Source: a virus. From it: DNA of 44,794 nucleotides. Location of the stretch: positions 1-44,794 of the IMG/VR virus record IMGVR_UViG_3300005468_000580, one strand, 5' to 3'. Shown one piece after another: positions 8,431-38,091 of this stretch. The position numbers were made by a program, and so were the translations under genes. Below the pieces are notes generated by a model. It ran no database searches and was not told the DNA's origin. It was given only the letters and a program-made list of their open reading frames with translations. Each line of letters begins with the position of its first letter. The first letter of the stretch is position 1.

Positions 8431-8661
8431 ATGAGCGATGAGCCGCTGATCCCACCGGAAGTGACGATGCAGATGCTTTCAGATGCCGGCCTCAATCCGT
8501 TCACTGTCAAGCTTCTGATCGAGTCATATCTGAGATTCACCAGGGAGCCAAAGCCGGTCAGCTTTAGGCTCTGGGGCGTGGCCTTTGCGATGGAACTGGT
8601 CGAGCCGAAGGAAGTTCCCGAAGAGCTCAAGGGAGAGGTCGTCAGGAAACTAGAGGGGTGA
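8431..8661 (+). CDS. hypothetical protein ahead of the adenine methyltransferase
   Basis: A 76-residue protein of unknown family with a helical centre (MQMLSDAGLNPFTVKLLIESYL) and a FRLWGVAFAMELVE strand-helix part. Its stop overlaps the GTG start of the DNA methyltransferase gene by the sequence GTGA, so the two are probably co-translated. Confidence 0.6.
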   Translation: MSDEPLIPPEVTMQMLSDAGLNPFTVKLLIESYLRFTREPKPVSFRLWGVAFAMELVEPKEVPEELKGEVVRKLEG

Positions 8662-9428
8662 GCCGGATAGTGAGAGGCGAGTCATACAATGGCGGCAAAG
8701 GTGGAATGGGGGTCTATCACACGATCATCAACCAGATCCCGCCTCAGCATCGCTTCATCAGTGCCTTCGGCGGAAGGTGCGCGATCACGCGCCACAAGCG
8801 GCCGGCGGCGGAAACCTGGCTGATCGAAAAGGACCTGCAGACTCTCCGGTTGTGGCGAGGCGATGAAATCCCAAACCTGAAGCTCGTCCACGGTGATGCG
8901 CTGGTGCTGCTCCCACAACTCGCCGCTCTGGATCTCCTCGCCAAAGATGGCGATGGTGGACCAACTTTCATTTATCTGGATCCCCCCTATCTGAAATCCA
9001 CGAGGCGCCATCCGGAGCGGGACTACTATCAGCACGAACTGACCGAAGCCGAGCACGTCCGCTTGCTCGAAATCATCCGAGGGCTGCCCTGCCCAGTGGC
9101 AATCAGCGGCTACCATTCACCGCTCTACGCTGAAGCGCTCAAAGACTGGCGCGCGATCCACTTCTCAACCACCGTGAGGGGCGGAGGGACAGCCACCGAA
9201 TGGTTGTGGATGAATTACCCTCAGCCGCCAGTCTTGCACGACGACCGTTATCTCGACTTCGGGAAAGGGTGGAAAGAAAGAGACCGCATCAAGAAAAAAA
9301 TCAACCGGCTGATGGTCAAGTGGCGAGAACTGCCTCCGCCCGAAAGACGCAAGCTCATCGCCGCGGCCCTCGCTGAATTCGGAGAGGCTGCCGACGGCGA
9401 TCACCTGGCCGGAGATAAAGAGGGGTGA
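8658..9428 (+). CDS. D12-class adenine-N6 DNA methyltransferase
   Basis: A 256-residue enzyme expected to transfer a methyl group from S-adenosylmethionine to adenine N6. The cofactor motif is the variant FGGRCAIT at 37-44, followed by an acidic EKD at 57-59. The catalytic DPPY motif is at 108-111 in FIYLDPPYL. SGYHS (150-154) and EWLWMNYP (181-188) match later conserved blocks of the Dam/D12 class. The last 50 residues are charged. It starts with GTG overlapping the preceding stop. It has no neighbouring endonuclease, so it is an orphan that probably protects phage DNA or modulates gene expression. Confidence 0.85.
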   Translation: MSRIVRGESYNGGKGGMGVYHTIINQIPPQHRFISAFGGRCAITRHKRPAAETWLIEKDLQTLRLWRGDEIPNLKLVHGDALVLLPQLAALDLLAKDGDGGPTFIYLDPPYLKSTRRHPERDYYQHELTEAEHVRLLEIIRGLPCPVAISGYHSPLYAEALKDWRAIHFSTTVRGGGTATEWLWMNYPQPPVLHDDRYLDFGKGWKERDRIKKKINRLMVKWRELPPPERRKLIAAALAEFGEAADGDHLAGDKEG

Positions 9429-9689: not shown

Positions 9690-9917
9690 ATGATGAGCTT
9701 TGGAATTATTTGCAGACAGAAATCCGAGTGCGATCAGGATGCGGCTTTTCGCTTCACCTGGCCAGGTAAAGACGAGTCGTTTATCTGCGAGCGACACGGC
9801 AGACGAATGGTCGAGATAGCTCAGGCGATGGGATTACACATCCAATTGATCCCGCTGACTGACCAGGATCACAGCGGGCCGGAAGGGATGAAATCCCCAG
9901 CCGAGCAAAGAAAGTGA
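9690..9917 (+). CDS. conserved phage zinc-binding protein
   Basis: A 75-residue protein with a C-x5-C pair at 8-14, FTWPGKDESFICERH at 22-36 and HIQLIPL near residue 50. This Cys...WPG...C-x2-H arrangement is typical of a small phage family, presumably one zinc site, with no assigned role. Its stop overlaps the cytosine methyltransferase start (GTGA). The ATG is doubled, so the start may be three bases later. Confidence 0.65.
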   Translation: MMSFGIICRQKSECDQDAAFRFTWPGKDESFICERHGRRMVEIAQAMGLHIQLIPLTDQDHSGPEGMKSPAEQRK

Positions 9918-10891
9918 ATCTGATCCTCTCCATTTTTCCAGGAATCGACCTCTTGGGCCGGGGATTTGAGGCTGAAGGCTTCTCAGTCGTCCGCGGGCCA
10001 GACCTGTTATGGGGCGGCGACATTGAGACCTTTCACGTCCCTTGTGGCCGCTTCGATGGGGTGATCGGGGGCTCACCCTGTGCCGACTTCAGCTCAGCGC
10101 GCCGTGACCCGCCGTCGGGTCACAGTCTCCGGATGCTCACAGAATTCTGCCGCGTCGTCGAGGAGGCCCAGCCCTCATGGTTTCTTTTGGAGAACGTCCC
10201 CCGCGTCCCCGACATCGCCGTCCCCGGCTACCACGTGCAACGCTTCGATCTGAATGCGCGCGAGTGCGGCGCTGCGCAGTCACGGCTTCGGCACTTCCAA
10301 TTCGGCAGCCGTGACAGCCAGGTGCTCGTGATCCCTCGAGGAGTCCCGGCGGTCGCCGAGTCACAGCCGATCTGCCTGGCTAGAGAAGGTGAAAGGAAGA
10401 ATCGCCGCTCATTCGCTGATTTCTGCGAACTCCAGGGGCTGCCACGTGGGTTCACGCTTCCCGGCCTCTCCATCGCCGCCAAATACGCCGCGGTGGGCAA
10501 TGGGGTCCCGATCCCCGTCGCGCGTGTGATCGCCCAGGCGATCCTGGCCGCTGCGCCGTCACACTCGGTCAGGCTCTGCATCTGCAACTGTGGACGGGTT
10601 GTGACCGGATGGCAAGTCTCGGCCACGCCGGCTTGCCGAAAGAGGTTGGAGCGGAGGCGGAAGCAGCCAAGGCTGACTGTGACAGGACCTGGCTCGGCGA
10701 CCAGCGCCGACGCACATTTCCATGACGCCGCGTTGCCGGCGCCGCTCGCCACTTCCGGCGATGGGGGATCACCGGGAAATCTTGAGCATCGCGCCTTGGG
10801 CTTCCGAGTGATGGGCGAGATGTGCCACGAAAGCAGATTCAGCGACGAGCTGCGGGCGCTGCTCGCGGGAGAGGCGCCAGTTGGAGGCTAA
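9914..10891 (+). CDS. C5-cytosine DNA methyltransferase with C-terminal zinc finger
   Basis: A 325-residue enzyme predicted to methylate cytosine C5. Motif I is the variant LSIFPGIDLLGRGFE; motif IV is GGSPC (52-56) with the catalytic Cys56; motif VI is LENVP (92-96); motif VIII/IX lies around GAAQSRLRHF; motif X is AVGNGVPIPVA (193-203). After the catalytic domain, LCICNCGRVV and ATPACRKRLERRR (221-249) form a Cys-rich basic finger of a type often fused to phage methyltransferases, and the last 70 residues are low complexity. No partner endonuclease is near. Start GTG overlaps the preceding stop. Confidence 0.85.
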   Translation: MNLILSIFPGIDLLGRGFEAEGFSVVRGPDLLWGGDIETFHVPCGRFDGVIGGSPCADFSSARRDPPSGHSLRMLTEFCRVVEEAQPSWFLLENVPRVPDIAVPGYHVQRFDLNARECGAAQSRLRHFQFGSRDSQVLVIPRGVPAVAESQPICLAREGERKNRRSFADFCELQGLPRGFTLPGLSIAAKYAAVGNGVPIPVARVIAQAILAAAPSHSVRLCICNCGRVVTGWQVSATPACRKRLERRRKQPRLTVTGPGSATSADAHFHDAALPAPLATSGDGGSPGNLEHRALGFRVMGEMCHESRFSDELRALLAGEAPVGG

Positions 10892-14035: not shown

Positions 14036-14737
14036 ATGAGCTTGATGATCTCCATCCTGACCTCTCCCCGGCCCGCGGGGCTGAGCTATCTCGGCCCAAC
14101 GCTTGAGGCGCTCACCCCGCAATTGCGCCCCGAGACGGCGCCGCTCGTCTTTGCCAACGGCTACCGGCCGGAGATTCCAGCCGCCTGGACGCTGGGGACC
14201 GCTCACCCTGAACCGCTCGGCACCCGCCGGATGATGTGGGAGATTCTGCGCGTCTTCGTCCACTCGAAACTCGACCGGCTGCTCTATTGCGAGGACGATA
14301 TCCTGCCGTGCCAAAACCTGATCTCGCTCTGCCACCGGTTGGATCTGCCGGACACCTGGCCAGTGGTGAGCTTCTTCGATCCTCGCATCCCACTCTCGGC
14401 CGCGCCGCGCCTGATCCGGCTGCCCATGAAGTTCTTTATTTACACTCAAGCCTGTCTGCTGCCTCGCCGCACGGCGCTCGAGCTGGCCGGCGCCGACTTC
14501 TCACCCCATCGCAAGTGGGGGAAGCATCGCGGCGATCTTTTTCTGCGCCATCATCTACTCGCGCTCGGCTACCGGGAGTACGGCCTGACCGATCCCCAGC
14601 TCATCCGCCACCAGGGAGAGACTTCCGCCATCACTCAAGGCCCCAGTCCGGCCCGGCATAATCCCGCCTTCGCCGGGGCCGATTTCAACGCGCTCCAGTT
14701 CCTGGATTGCCGGCCCGCGATAGAGCGAGCCAAGTGA
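14036..14737 (+). CDS. glycosyltransferase-like protein, opposite to the late module
   Basis: A 233-residue protein on the plus strand inside the minus-strand late block. It begins MSLMISILTSPRPAG, has RLLYCEDDILPCQN at about 81-94 where the acidic CEDD resembles the metal-binding motif of glycosyltransferases, and a PVVSFFDPRIPL stretch. The family is not certain. It could decorate host or virion surfaces or modified DNA. Its last 183 bases overlap, in antisense, the end of the phosphoribosyltransferase gene. As a separate cassette in a late operon it looks like a later insertion (moron). Confidence 0.6.
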   Translation: MSLMISILTSPRPAGLSYLGPTLEALTPQLRPETAPLVFANGYRPEIPAAWTLGTAHPEPLGTRRMMWEILRVFVHSKLDRLLYCEDDILPCQNLISLCHRLDLPDTWPVVSFFDPRIPLSAAPRLIRLPMKFFIYTQACLLPRRTALELAGADFSPHRKWGKHRGDLFLRHHLLALGYREYGLTDPQLIRHQGETSAITQGPSPARHNPAFAGADFNALQFLDCRPAIERAK

Positions 14738-15268
14738 GAGGGCCTCCAGGTTCAGCCGCCTGAGCCGCCTCGCCTGCGTCATGCGCTTCCACCCGAAACG
14801 AAACATCACGAGCAAGCCAGTTGGATTGAAACCTTCAGACCTCAGAGCAGCAACGGCGGCGGCGGCAGTGTGGCCGCCGGAGAGCAAGTCATCGACCAGC
14901 CAGACCGGTCTCGCGGGATCCAGCGAGCCCTCGATCAGCTTCCGGTAGCCATAAGCTTTCCGCTCGGGTCGGACGAGCCCGCCGGTCAACTCGCCGGCCG
15001 AGAGCAGGGCGGAGATGAGAAAGAACGAGCCGTAGCCGTAGCCGGCGACCTGTCTGACTCCGCGCTCAGCGAGCAGTCGGGCCATTTCCGCCGCCACAGG
15101 GCGCAGCAATTCGGAGCGTGAGAGTGGGATTCTCAGATCCATCGCCCAGGGCGAGACGCGGCCGGAGGCACGGACATATTCACGCTCCGAGCGGGGGATG
15201 AATCCCAGGCGAGCGATCCGCCGAAGCGTCGGGCCGAGGGCCAGGTTGTCAGGTTCGACGATAAGCAT
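14555..15268 (-). CDS. orotate-PRT-like phosphoribosyltransferase
   Basis: A 237-residue protein. VWLVDDLLSGGHTA at 122-135 is the PRPP-binding loop of type I phosphoribosyltransferases, and RPERKAYGY at 100-108 followed by GSLDPARP resembles the orotate phosphoribosyltransferase catalytic region. The enzyme would join a base to PRPP. The last 60 residues (from LYRGPAIQE) lie antisense to the glycosyltransferase gene and may be a non-conserved extension. There is no other nucleotide-salvage gene nearby; possible roles are nucleotide supply or base metabolism for DNA modification. Confidence 0.7.
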   Translation of the reverse strand: MLIVEPDNLALGPTLRRIARLGFIPRSEREYVRASGRVSPWAMDLRIPLSRSELLRPVAAEMARLLAERGVRQVAGYGYGSFFLISALLSAGELTGGLVRPERKAYGYRKLIEGSLDPARPVWLVDDLLSGGHTAAAAVAALRSEGFNPTGLLVMFRFGWKRMTQARRLRRLNLEALSLGSLYRGPAIQELERVEIGPGEGGIMPGRTGALSDGGSLSLVADELGIGQAVLPVAERE

Positions 15269-28440: not shown

Positions 28441-28959
28441 TTACTTCCCACCGTGGTGAAGCTTTCGCCAGATCCATGGCGCCGTGGGATTAGCCTCCGC
28501 CCACAAGCCCAGCTTCGCCGCTTTGGCTTCAGCTTCGAGCTTCGCAATCTCGGGCGCCCGCGCCCGCGGCCGGTAGTACCAGGCCAGGCCGGCTTTGACG
28601 AGTTCAGCCGAGACACTCTTGCCGGAGCCAGTAACAACCTCAGCTACCGTCCGCCCATAGATGTCTTTGCCCCTGGCCTTGATCTGGACGTCCTGGCCCA
28701 TCACCAGTTGCTGCGTCAGGGCCGTCGCTTCGGCATTGAAAGGCTGATCGCCTCTCCTCTCCGGGCAGTCCACGCCATAGAGGCGGATGTGCTCGGAGTG
28801 GCCGTGGTGAGTAACCACGATCGTATCGCCGTCGATGACTCTTTCGACCGGCGCCGTGAATTCAGAGTGAGCCGGTTTAGTTACTTGAGCAAAACAAACA
28901 GATGGCAGCAGTAGCAGCAGGCAAGCAAGCAAAGCAGGCAATCTTCGTTTCATAGTCAT
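28441..28959 (-). CDS. secreted staphylococcal-nuclease-like protein
   Basis: A 172-residue protein with a signal peptide at about 1-24 (KRRLPALLACLLLLLPSVCF) whose core is encoded by a GCA-rich repeat. The mature part is an SNase domain: VIDGDTIVV at 43-51, HIRLYGVDCPE at about 57-67 with its conserved Arg, YGRTVAEV with the second Arg, and LVKAGLAWYY. SNase enzymes cut DNA and RNA with calcium. Secretion by a lysogen would place it outside the cytoplasm, where it could degrade extracellular DNA or competing phage DNA. GGAGACCTCGACT precedes the ATG. Confidence 0.85.
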   Translation of the reverse strand: MTMKRRLPALLACLLLLLPSVCFAQVTKPAHSEFTAPVERVIDGDTIVVTHHGHSEHIRLYGVDCPERRGDQPFNAEATALTQQLVMGQDVQIKARGKDIYGRTVAEVVTGSGKSVSAELVKAGLAWYYRPRARAPEIAKLEAEAKAAKLGLWAEANPTAPWIWRKLHHGGK

Positions 28960-33136: not shown

Positions 33137-33274
33137 CAAATTCAGTGCTGCTCAAGCGGCACTGAGAGTGAGTGCCGGCCGCCCCAGAGAGCCCCCAATC
33201 ATCACCAGCTCGCCTTGACTAGACCTCGCACGCAACGGGCTGGCGATGTCCCCACAAGCAACCGGCACAGCAGA

Positions 33275-33376
33275 GAGTAGGCAGTAGGCGGTAGGCAGTA
33301 AGCAGTTCCCGCGCCCTCGCGCTGACTCAAGATCTCCGATTGCAACCACTGCCTACTGCCATCTGGCTACTGCTTA
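33275..33376. repeat. heptamer repeat array with inverted partner
   Basis: Heptamers GTAGGCA run from about 33280, with a facing set (ACTGCCTACTGCC) at 33345-33360, giving a large imperfect inverted repeat around a GC-rich loop. It belongs to the family at 13945-14034. No gene lies in the gap 33080-33473 apart from regulatory repeats. Confidence 0.65.
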
Positions 33377-33392
33377 GCCAAAAAGCAAAACA

Positions 33393-33430
33393 CCCTGCTG
33401 GGGAGTGAAGCACGAGGCTTACCAGCAGGG
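33393..33430 (-). terminator. intrinsic terminator on the minus strand
   Basis: CCCTGCTGG (33393-33401) pairs with CCAGCAGGG (33422-33430). Read on the minus strand, the second arm is followed by TGTTTTGCTTTTT, a U-rich tract. It would end transcription of the small gene at 33474 and of anything upstream of it, including the DpdA-like gene. Confidence 0.65.
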
Positions 33431-33473
33431 CGCAGGAGCGCGGCACGAATTTTAAGGAGCGAATCTCAAGGCT

Positions 33474-33692
33474 TCACTCGCTCGATGGAACTATATCACA
33501 GCAACGCTGCGATTCAAGTAGTCTGACCACCACCTCCAGCGAGAGGGCATTGGTGTGAGTCGCGCCGTGATGGCGCGAACTGATCAGTAGTGCGCCAGCC
33601 TGCGCCCGGGCAAATGGCAGGTCGCAGCAAGAGCAGATCAAGGCGAGAGTATGACCGCGCTGTTCGACACGTAGAGAAGGGAGATCACCCAT
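33474..33692 (-). CDS. small conserved phage protein with Cys/His pattern
   Basis: A 72-residue protein. LRVEQRGHTLALICSCCDLPFA followed by GALLISSRHHGATHTNALSLE resembles a small phage family with a two-cysteine site and a conserved SRHHG-H-N-x-LSL stretch, probably a zinc ribbon. The function is unknown. ATG chosen; a TTG three bases upstream is possible. An intrinsic terminator follows. Confidence 0.55.
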   Translation of the reverse strand: MGDLPSLRVEQRGHTLALICSCCDLPFARAQAGALLISSRHHGATHTNALSLEVVVRLLESQRCCDIVPSSE

Positions 33693-33854
33693 CAATCACC
33701 AGGCTAAATCGGAGGGCACACGGGCAGGAGGTCGGATCGGGGGGTCACCAGGGGTGCCAGGCTGACCGTCCGTGGGAGAGCGGCCAGCCCGGCCCGCTAA
33801 TACGCTCTTCTGTCCTCACCCCAGAAGAGCACTTTGCCCCACGCAATAATAACA

Positions 33855-33895
33855 CGCTGAGTCAAGCAGTAAGCAGATGGCAGATGGCAGTTTTA
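33855..33895. repeat. heptamer-type repeat array
   Basis: GCAGTAAGCAGATGGCAGATGGCAG-like copies on one side of a small frame at 33904-34002. The facing block is at 34015-34050. Between 33693 and here, GCTCTTCTG (33804-33812) pairs with CAGAAGAGC (33822-33830) without a U-run; nothing else is seen. Confidence 0.5.
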
Positions 33896-33903
33896 TTCGT
33901 CGG

Positions 33904-34002
33904 TTACTCGTCGGTCAGGAGCAAATAGAGACCGGTGCGCAGCAGCCAGGCGAGAGCAGCAAGGTAGAGACCGTCAGAGATCTCGAGGGGAGGGATCAGC
34001 AC
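33904..34002 (-). CDS. possible 32-residue membrane peptide
   Basis: A small frame starting with GTG: LIPPLEISDGLYLAALAWLL, then RTGLYLLLTDE. The hydrophobic run is plausible for a membrane peptide. No strong ribosome-binding site is seen, and it lies between two heptamer repeat blocks, so it may be chance. Confidence 0.3.
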   Translation of the reverse strand: MLIPPLEISDGLYLAALAWLLRTGLYLLLTDE

Positions 34003-34014
34003 GCGAGGAGTCTA

Positions 34015-34050
34015 CCACTGCCTACTGCTTACTGCCTACCGCCTACTGTT
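34015..34050. repeat. heptamer-type repeat array
   Basis: CCACTGCCTACTGCTTACTGCC-like copies facing the block at 33855-33895. Confidence 0.5.
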
Positions 34051-34245: not shown

Positions 34246-34311
34246 CAGGGCTGATCTGGCGGTGCGCCGGCGCAAAACTCTTTGCGCCGGCGCACCGCCA
34301 GATCAGCCCTG
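34246..34311. repeat. 31-bp perfect inverted repeat at the end of the DpdA-like gene
   Basis: Arms 34246-34276 and 34281-34311 are perfectly complementary with only ACTC between them. They are very GC-rich (GCGCCGGCGC near the tip). Weaker complementarity continues outward on both sides. The stop codon of the DpdA-like gene (34303-34305) is inside the right arm. No U-tract follows, so this is not a standard terminator; it can extrude as a cruciform and looks like an inverted duplication or a site for a DNA-binding protein. Confidence 0.75.
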
Positions 34312-35319
34312 AACAGGGGAAACACGAGGCCCGGTGAAATCTCCGACGGGATCGCGATACCAGGGAGAGGAGCGGAGGCGCGAGAGGTGAGACACCCACC
34401 AGGCGACATTATCGCGCCAATAGCCTGATGGCGCACGCACGCCTGCCTTCTTCGAATCGCCGCGGCTGCAAGCCAGGACAGGAGCGCTGGAATCGGTCGA
34501 GACGAGCAAGCCATAATTGTCCGCCAGGTAGAGCAGCGCGCCCAGGGCCGGTTCAAAAAGTACGCCAAAGATGTGCACCCGCGTCAATCCAGCGGCGCTG
34601 ATCCGCGGCAGGATGCGCCGGAGAGTCTCCACGAAGACCGGCATCCAGGTCGTGAAGCGGCCAAGGATGCACCAGCCACCCAGGCCGATCACGTCATCCG
34701 GCCTCGCCACCTTGAGCACCTCGACGACACAATCCTCATATTGGCTGGCGTCCACGCCCTGGCAGGCGAGGACCAATTGCCTGGGCGACAAGCGAGGCCG
34801 CTGCCTGGCCAGGTAGCGCGCCGCGGCGACTGTCTCGCTCACTGCCCGTTCGGCCTCCAGGCGTGTCCAACGCCGCTTCAGGCGCTCGCCACCGATCCAC
34901 ACCTCGTCAATCAGCAGGTCGTAGCTGACCAGCAGATCAGCACGCACACTCGCCCCCCAGCGATCACTCGCTGTCCGCTCCCAGGCGAGTTGCCGCCCCA
35001 GGGCAGACTCAGGGGTCAGACGCTCGTCGGGTGAGTCACTGAAAGCGCCGGAGTCGAGCAAGATGGATAACTGATGGGGATCATCTGGCTGAGCTTGAGG
35101 GCGCAGGGCGGCAGAGAAACAGCGGTCGCCGGTCAAGGTGTCGCGCTCACCCTGGATCGTCCACTGATGGCCGCCAGTGTAAAGACGAATGGCCGGAGTC
35201 GGGCAATGAATCACCCTGACAAGATAGCACAGGGAAGTAGTCCGCTGGCTGTGCTTGCCTGCCTGCTTTTGCTGCTGCTGCCGAAGGGTTTTCGTTTCAT
35301 CAAAACCAAACCGTCCCAC
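34303..35319 (-). CDS. dpdA: DpdA/TGT-like deazaguanine base-exchange enzyme
   Basis: A 338-residue frame. By comparison with tRNA-guanine transglycosylases and DpdA, LLDSGAF (87-93, Asp89) corresponds to the LTDSGGF active site, CQGVD (186-190) to the IVQGG region, IGLGGWCILGR (211-221) to the Q-loop, HIFGV (249-253) to the LMGVG region and STDSSAP (274-280, Asp276) to the region of the nucleophilic Asp. DpdA proteins insert a 7-deazaguanine into DNA in place of guanine, which blocks restriction. No preQ0 synthesis genes are seen here. The first 35 residues are partly translated GCA repeat (RQQQQKQAGK); the true start may be the GTG at 35214. The symbol is by family resemblance. Confidence 0.7.
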   Translation of the reverse strand: MGRFGFDETKTLRQQQQKQAGKHSQRTTSLCYLVRVIHCPTPAIRLYTGGHQWTIQGERDTLTGDRCFSAALRPQAQPDDPHQLSILLDSGAFSDSPDERLTPESALGRQLAWERTASDRWGASVRADLLVSYDLLIDEVWIGGERLKRRWTRLEAERAVSETVAAARYLARQRPRLSPRQLVLACQGVDASQYEDCVVEVLKVARPDDVIGLGGWCILGRFTTWMPVFVETLRRILPRISAAGLTRVHIFGVLFEPALGALLYLADNYGLLVSTDSSAPVLACSRGDSKKAGVRAPSGYWRDNVAWWVSHLSRLRSSPWYRDPVGDFTGPRVSPVQG

Positions 35320-37213: not shown

Positions 37214-37561
37214 ATGAAAGCGAAAGTCATTCTGATCAGTTTCACACTCGCGGTAGTTTTCGCGCTTCCTCTGACCGCGCAGGCCGGCGACGACAAAGAG
37301 GTACAGGCTTGTATCGCCGAACGGCTGGCCAACTCAAAGAGCCTGGCCGGGCAAAAAATCACGGTGGTAGTTAAGGACAACGTGCCGACGCTCAGCGGCC
37401 AGGTCGAAGACAGCAGGCAGAAAGGCACAGCGACGCGCATCGCGCACAGCAAGGTGTGTGGCGCCGAGAAGCCGGTGAATCAGATCAAGGCCAAGGTCTC
37501 GCGACCATTCGGCCAGAAGGACAAGTCGAAGAAGGTGGCCAAGCCGGAGGAGGCCGGGTAG
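37214..37561 (+). CDS. secreted BON-domain protein
   Basis: A 115-residue protein. CAGGAGAAAACC precedes the ATG. Residues 1-23 form a signal peptide (KAKVILISFTLAVVFALPL, then AQA). The mature part is a BON domain: VQACIAERLANSKSL, KITVVVKDNVPTLSGQVED and a second helix. BON domains bind phospholipids and act at envelope membranes. In a lysogen it could alter the cell surface. Confidence 0.7.
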   Translation: MKAKVILISFTLAVVFALPLTAQAGDDKEVQACIAERLANSKSLAGQKITVVVKDNVPTLSGQVEDSRQKGTATRIAHSKVCGAEKPVNQIKAKVSRPFGQKDKSKKVAKPEEAG

Positions 37562-37668
37562 TAAGTCGGCGGCTTGTGGGGCCGGCGGCGGGCGCTCTGA
37601 CGGGAAGACTGTGGAAGGTCGAGCGGGAGAGCGTGGGTCCGCCGCCGGCCTCGCCCAAGGAGGACGAG

Positions 37669-38091
37669 ATGAAGCGACAAGCAACAGCAGAGCAGAAAGC
37701 AGCAGCCGAGGCCAGGCGCGAGAGGTTCCGCGCCATCGTCAGGGCCGTGGCCGCGATGAGCGATGAGCAGCGCGCAGCGATCGTCGAACGCATCGGCGCC
37801 GTCCCGACGTGCGAGGGCCGGGTGCTCAGCGTCTTCAATTCGTGCTTGATCTTGACGCAGCATCCGCAGGCCTCGATGGTGGGCGGGTTCCGCCAGTGGC
37901 TCGACAAGGGGCGCGCAGTGAAGAAGGGCGAGCACAGTTTGATGATTTGGATTCCGAAGAAGGGCAAAGAGAGCGAGTCAACAGAGCCGAAGCCGAACGC
38001 GGACAAAGAGGAGATGGCTTTCTTTATGGGGACGGTCTTCGACATCAGCCAGACCATCGAGGTTGAGACTAGTAGGCAGGAGGCGGCATGA
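37669..38091 (+). CDS. ArdC-like antirestriction/ssDNA-binding protein
   Basis: A 140-residue protein; AAGGAGGACGAG before the ATG decides the start. RVLSVFNSCLILTQHP, GGFRQWLDKGRAVKKGEH, LMIWIPKKGK and a final GTVFDISQT follow the N-terminal domain of ArdC, which protects incoming plasmid or phage DNA from restriction and binds single-stranded DNA. The ArdC C-terminal metalloprotease domain is absent, so this is an isolated N-terminal domain. Confidence 0.7.
   Translation: MKRQATAEQKAAAEARRERFRAIVRAVAAMSDEQRAAIVERIGAVPTCEGRVLSVFNSCLILTQHPQASMVGGFRQWLDKGRAVKKGEHSLMIWIPKKGKESESTEPKPNADKEEMAFFMGTVFDISQTIEVETSRQEAA

Follow-up and report, generated by a model that had tools for sequence, protein, structure and literature searches.

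The described enzymes closest to the protein analysed here are the DpdA proteins of the phage 9g and Rosebush type and of bacterial dpd islands (PDB 7ui4), the bacterial tRNA-guanine transglycosylases (TGTs; PF01702), and DpdA2 of Vibrio phage nt-1. The mechanism of TGT and DpdA is established and provides the template for the roles of D89 and D276 proposed below. DpdA genes in phages without preQ0 synthesis genes were the largest group, with 76 phages, in a survey from 2019 (PMC6884629). Mass spectrometry of two such singleton-DpdA phages found Orion to be unmodified and 7-11 to contain trace dADG (PMC6884629). MED16, also a singleton-DpdA phage, carries dADG and is a precedent for host-derived modification (PMC8306585). 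A transglycosylase without preQ0 genes is therefore a known phage arrangement, and the idea put forward in the original prediction, that the present gene represents a compact, possibly new form of DNA hypermodification, is not borne out as a novelty.

The gene is located in a 44,794-nucleotide viral record that also encodes a terminase, a portal protein, and an integrase (IMG/VR IMGVR_UViG_3300005468_000580; hereafter the window). With a probability of about 0.6, its product is a TIM-barrel base exchanger that belongs to a new TGT/DpdA subfamily nearest to phage DpdA and replaces guanine in the DNA of the phage by a 7-deazaguanine that the host makes. This reading draws on the fold, the profile comparison, the order of the motifs, the absence of a zinc motif, the DNA-modification context, QueC and canonical TGT in four genomes that carry the gene, and the singleton-DpdA precedent; the unmodified DNA of one singleton-DpdA phage and the mere trace in the other count against it (PMC6884629). 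The gene resembles those of Orion, 7-11, and MED16 in occurring without preQ0 synthesis genes, but theirs fall in recognised DpdA/TGT clusters, whereas the present one has no match among the PHROG queuine tRNA-ribosyltransferase families. The new elements are the subfamily as such, the lack of a counterpart in those family libraries and phage records that were searched, the fusion of one member to Mom and a C5 methyltransferase, and the coexistence with a second transglycosylase.

Gene extent and conservation

The 338-residue open reading frame at 34303-35319 (-) was confirmed in the window and is a real, conserved gene, beyond chance. A protein from another viral contig is 58% identical to its product over 290 residues (first scan), and 24 alignment columns are invariant across 20 family members. 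Two close pairs of near-identical relatives have dN/dS ratios of 0.05 and 0.15, respectively, which indicates purifying selection. The original prediction of a frame with TGT/DpdA-type motifs is thus borne out by the window and by the relatives, but the predicted coordinates probably include an untranslated segment (Table 1). The first approximately 35 residues have pLDDT values below 50 and are not common to the relatives; therefore, the GTG codon at 35214 is probably the true start.

The inverted repeat that spans the stop codon is possibly a terminator or processing hairpin, and no exact copy of it was found elsewhere in the IMG/VR viral contigs. The stretch that separates the gene from the packaging genes contains, at positions 33267-34049, dispersed CTACTGCCTACTGC-type repeats, both direct and inverted, which may help in host identification.

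Table 1. Positions of the DpdA-like gene, its motifs, and associated features in the window and in related contigs.
Feature	Position	Strand	Remarks
DpdA-like transglycosylase gene, likely true extent	34303..35214	-	GTG start at 35214, 303 aa; relatives begin nearby
In-frame upstream extension, probably not translated	35215..35319	-	pLDDT < 50, unconserved
LLDSGAFSD; D89 corresponds to TGT/DpdA DSG(G/A)F	35035..35061	-	D, S, A invariant (20 members)
SYDLLIDE; D134 aligns with TGT base-recognition Asp region (FDEC)	34903..34926	-	conservation and TGT profile alignment
QGV, TGT-type	34753..34761	-	Q, G invariant; aligned to TGT QGG, DpdA HxG
GLGGWCILG, GG substrate loop	34660..34686	-	GGWC invariant; aligned to DpdA LGG
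HIFG, corresponds to DpdA-specific His196 (HGFG)	34564..34575	-	H, G invariant; HxxG spacing as in phage DpdA
STDS; D276 presumed catalytic nucleophile (DpdA SxDSS)	34489..34500	-	S, T, D invariant; aligned to DpdA DSS
Perfect 31-bp inverted repeat (loop of 4 nt) spanning the stop codon	34246..34311	.	-81.6 kcal/mol, z -12.9
D12-class adenine DNA methyltransferase	8658..9428	+	PF02086
C5-cytosine DNA methyltransferase	9914..10891	+	PF00145, E 5e-21
DpdA-like, Mom (PF25680, E 5e-12), and C5 methyltransferase (E 4e-29) in one 1056-residue ORF	L020:7650-10820		
1339-residue protein with C5 methyltransferase, Dam, ParB-like, and D12 methyltransferase parts, directly before DpdA-like gene	L018:2626-6645		
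Second, different DpdA-like gene in complete preQ0/archaeosine cluster	L053:7549-8352 (contig G010)		

Fold and profile comparison

The predicted structure of the trimmed protein has a mean pLDDT of 91.4 and a pTM of 0.90. In a Foldseek search of the PDB with this model, DpdA 7ui4 ranks first (E 2.3e-7, probability 1.00, TM 0.46/0.35) and TGT 3bll second (E 1e-5), and the same two entries are on top for an earlier model of the full frame. The next matches are aldolases and epimerases (E 5e-5 to 1e-3), as would be expected of an unrelated TIM-barrel enzyme that is TGT-like in its general fold only. Such an enzyme is very improbable, because DpdA and TGT rank above all other entries in both PDB searches and the profile match aligns all catalytic motifs in order, with controls near zero; this candidate was rejected on the profile and motif evidence. 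The matches in a library of viral folds are phage transglycosylases, including the enzyme of Achromobacter phage Motura and the nt-1 protein R9TGF0, the latter without implying identity with DpdA2. The Motura enzyme was assigned to a deazaguanine DNA system in a published survey (PMC7824862). The TM-scores of the fold matches are modest (0.35-0.55), indicating a distant relation, which counts against the main reading. Therefore, sequence profiles were also compared.

The family profile matches those of 11 phage DpdAs with a probability of 94% (E ~1e-7, score 61-62), and the alignment covers the DSGAFS, QG/HxG, LGG, HxFG, and SxDSS motifs in order. Nine bacterial TGTs score 34-54, varying with trimming, and the reversed and 40 shuffled controls reach at most 23.5. 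An HMM search with the DpdA profile A3, run without a positive control, gave no match in the window or the contigs. The zinc-binding CxCxxC motif, present in 9/9 TGTs, was found in 0/19 family members and 0/11 phage DpdAs. The fold ranking, profile scores, and absence of the zinc motif make membership of the gene product in the TGT/DpdA superfamily well supported. They also support its placement on a separate branch, nearer to DpdA than to TGT, that keeps the TGT-type QG. The profile and structure comparisons that the original prediction had proposed as checks agree with its assignment to the DpdA type rather than to TGT: phage DpdAs score above TGTs, and 7ui4 precedes 3bll, the aldolases, and the epimerases.

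Catalytic motifs and proposed mechanism

The near-invariant signature of the family consists of DSGAFSD, YDxLIDE, QGV, GLGGWC, HxFG, and STD. In the numbering of the 338-residue frame, the motifs are LLDSGAFSD (87-95), ACQGV (185-189), IGLGGWCILG (211-220), VHIFGV (248-253), and VSTDSSAP (273-280). The LTDSGGF-like, QGG-like, and nucleophile regions named in the original prediction are present, but its GGxxxG motif is actually GLGGWCILG. The presumed catalytic aspartate pair D89 and D276 is invariant in 20 members and aligned to phage DpdA motifs; the phage counterpart of DSGAFSD reads DSGAFSA. H249, also invariant, is the counterpart of the DpdA-specific histidine (position 196 in 9g).

The family shares with DpdA the fold, the DSGAFS, GG, HxxG, and SxDS motifs in order, the absence of the zinc motif, and the phage setting. 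In contrast to DpdA, it may escape sequence searches with DpdA, has QGV instead of HxG, and contains the additional conserved YDLLIDE, RRW, and GGWC; the gene in the window also has no adjoining preQ0 genes. The TGT-type QGV counts against the main reading. Similarities to bacterial TGT include the TIM barrel and the DSG, base-recognition D, QG, and GG motifs; however, there is no PF01702 match and no zinc motif, and HxFG and STDS replace MGVG and DxFDC. Like DpdA2, the family is a divergent viral group with a TGT fold that is found by profile or fold only, but the HGFG histidine, which is missing in DpdA2 (PMC6884629), is kept in all of its members.

It is possible that the protein is a phage tRNA-guanine transglycosylase, which would insert a queuosine precursor into the anticodons of host or phage tRNAs and thereby tune translation. 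TGT is the second-best fold match, and QGV together with the TPExAxxQ and A..AVxETxxAA helices aligns with TGT. Nevertheless, this function is quite unlikely, and less likely than a DNA substrate: the zinc site is absent, HxFG and SxDS are of the DpdA type, the carrier genomes already have TGT, relatives of the gene adjoin or are fused to those of DNA-modifying enzymes, and zero tRNA genes were found in the window.

DNA is the probable substrate in view of the motifs of DpdA type, the lack of a zinc site, and the DNA-modification context. In the preferred mechanism of guanine exchange in DNA, the enzyme would bind phage DNA, and D276 would attack the glycosidic carbon of the target guanine, which would leave via a covalent enzyme-DNA intermediate. 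The bond would then be restored to a base of the 7-deazaguanine type, namely preQ0 or one of its derivatives, from the queuosine pathway of the host. The alignment suggests D89, D134, Q187, and the GLGGW loop as the elements that would bind this base, with D89 acting as an acid/base or base-recognition residue. The resulting phage DNA may be resistant to restriction. The least certain part of the mechanism is which base enters the DNA; the supply of this base by the host and the anti-restriction role are likewise putative.

Distribution of the family

Searches of Pfam, PHROGs, NCBIfam, and PDB sequences with the single sequence found nothing significant. The window protein and two divergent relatives have no match in 50,697 phage records, and the Pfam TGT family (PF01702) matches neither the window nor any family member. 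One relative weakly matches the PHROG queuine tRNA-ribosyltransferase families (E 0.0076). In uncultivated viral contigs, a two-sequence profile identified 12 loci and a 12-sequence profile 23. A collection of bacterial genomes yielded two matches, both in Chloroflexota (a Chloroheliaceae MAG and Tengunoibacter tsumagoiensis), and the gene is present in 3/301 Chloroflexota genomes, Tengunoibacter again among them. The family thus spans about 23-25 uncultivated-phage contigs and four Chloroflexota genomes. A plasmid search with one family member found no match. With this family, the known range of phage enzymes that rewrite DNA bases would extend to a group that is missing from the libraries searched (annotated phages, Pfam, and NCBIfam).

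The family occurs in phages of Chloroflexota-type hosts and, by protein similarity, of cyanobacteria. The terminase of the window is closest to that of a Microcystis phage (56%) and to those of phages of several phyla. Assignment of a host by the integrase failed, as the best Chloroflexota match has 34% identity.

DNA-modification genes near the family

The two DNA methyltransferases of the window are encoded ~24-25 kb from the DpdA-like gene. Many phages encode DNA methyltransferases, and this commonness weighs against the main reading. Apart from D12 methyltransferases and a single replication-region gene in common, no conservation of gene order with the window was found. In one relative, the DpdA-like, Mom, and C5 methyltransferase parts form a single protein (L020), which hints at combined DNA modification within one protein. 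The contig is from an isolate genome, with plasmid matches mainly in Nostoc; among the plasmid matches listed for the fusion, only the methyltransferase or Mom parts aligned. Mom-like proteins are encoded on the L016 and L017 contigs, the latter also with a D12 methyltransferase. A PAPS-reductase-like gene adjoins the DpdA-like gene in L014 and L015 and is ~0.8 kb away in L027. A short DpdA-like remnant lies between an ASCH-like region and methyltransferase-like sequence in one open reading frame (L025:7038-10103).

Precursor supply and a second transglycosylase

As originally predicted, the window lacks preQ0 genes: QueC and QueD were not detected by HMM search, and FolE and QueE are absent as judged from the list of open reading frames alone. 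QueC is absent from 23/24 viral contigs including the window, and QueD from 23/24. QueC and canonical TGT are present in 4/4 genomes carrying the gene; therefore, a host-supplied precursor, as had been proposed, is possible in those genomes.

Of the 24 viral contigs, the only one with QueC and QueD is G010 (177 kb), which carries family member L012. Its cluster comprises QueD, QueE, FolE, a glutamine-amidotransferase-QueC fusion, and a different DpdA-like protein, resembling a Flavobacterium phage protein annotated as DNA guanine transglycosylase. Therefore, a dedicated preQ0-cluster transglycosylase and the present family coexist on one contig. This counts against the main reading, in that it argues against a plain preQ0 inserter and makes a different substrate conceivable. 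In a phage with two different transglycosylase-type genes, base and site specificity become testable.

The protein might instead be a DNA base exchanger whose incoming base has an origin other than preQ0 or undergoes further hypermodification; its partners would be enzymes such as Mom-like acyltransferases or PAPS-reductase-like proteins. The separate DpdA of the G010 cluster, the L020 fusion, and the PAPS-reductase-like genes at L014, L015, and L027 are in line with such an exchange. It is unlikely, however, because the family keeps the base-pocket residues known from 7-deazaguanine enzymes (D89, D134, Q187, GG), many phages carry PAPS-reductase-like genes, these occur beside the gene in only 3/~20 loci, and the fusion was seen once only. 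A further, also rather doubtful proposal is a distinct family of DNA guanine exchangers, separate from DpdA and DpdA2, that would use a base other than preQ0/archaeosine or perform one stage of a multi-enzyme hypermodification together with Mom-type acyltransferases and C5 methyltransferases. If so, one large phage would encode such an exchanger alongside a true preQ0 inserter.

Other genes of the window

Two overlapping convergent open reading frames at 14036-14737 (+) and 14555-15268 (-), with no Pfam or PHROG match, read as glycosyltransferase-like and phosphoribosyltransferase-like, respectively. A staphylococcal-nuclease-like protein is encoded at 28441-28959 (-), and the open reading frame at 37456-38091 (+) contains the N-terminal domain of the anti-restriction factor ArdC.
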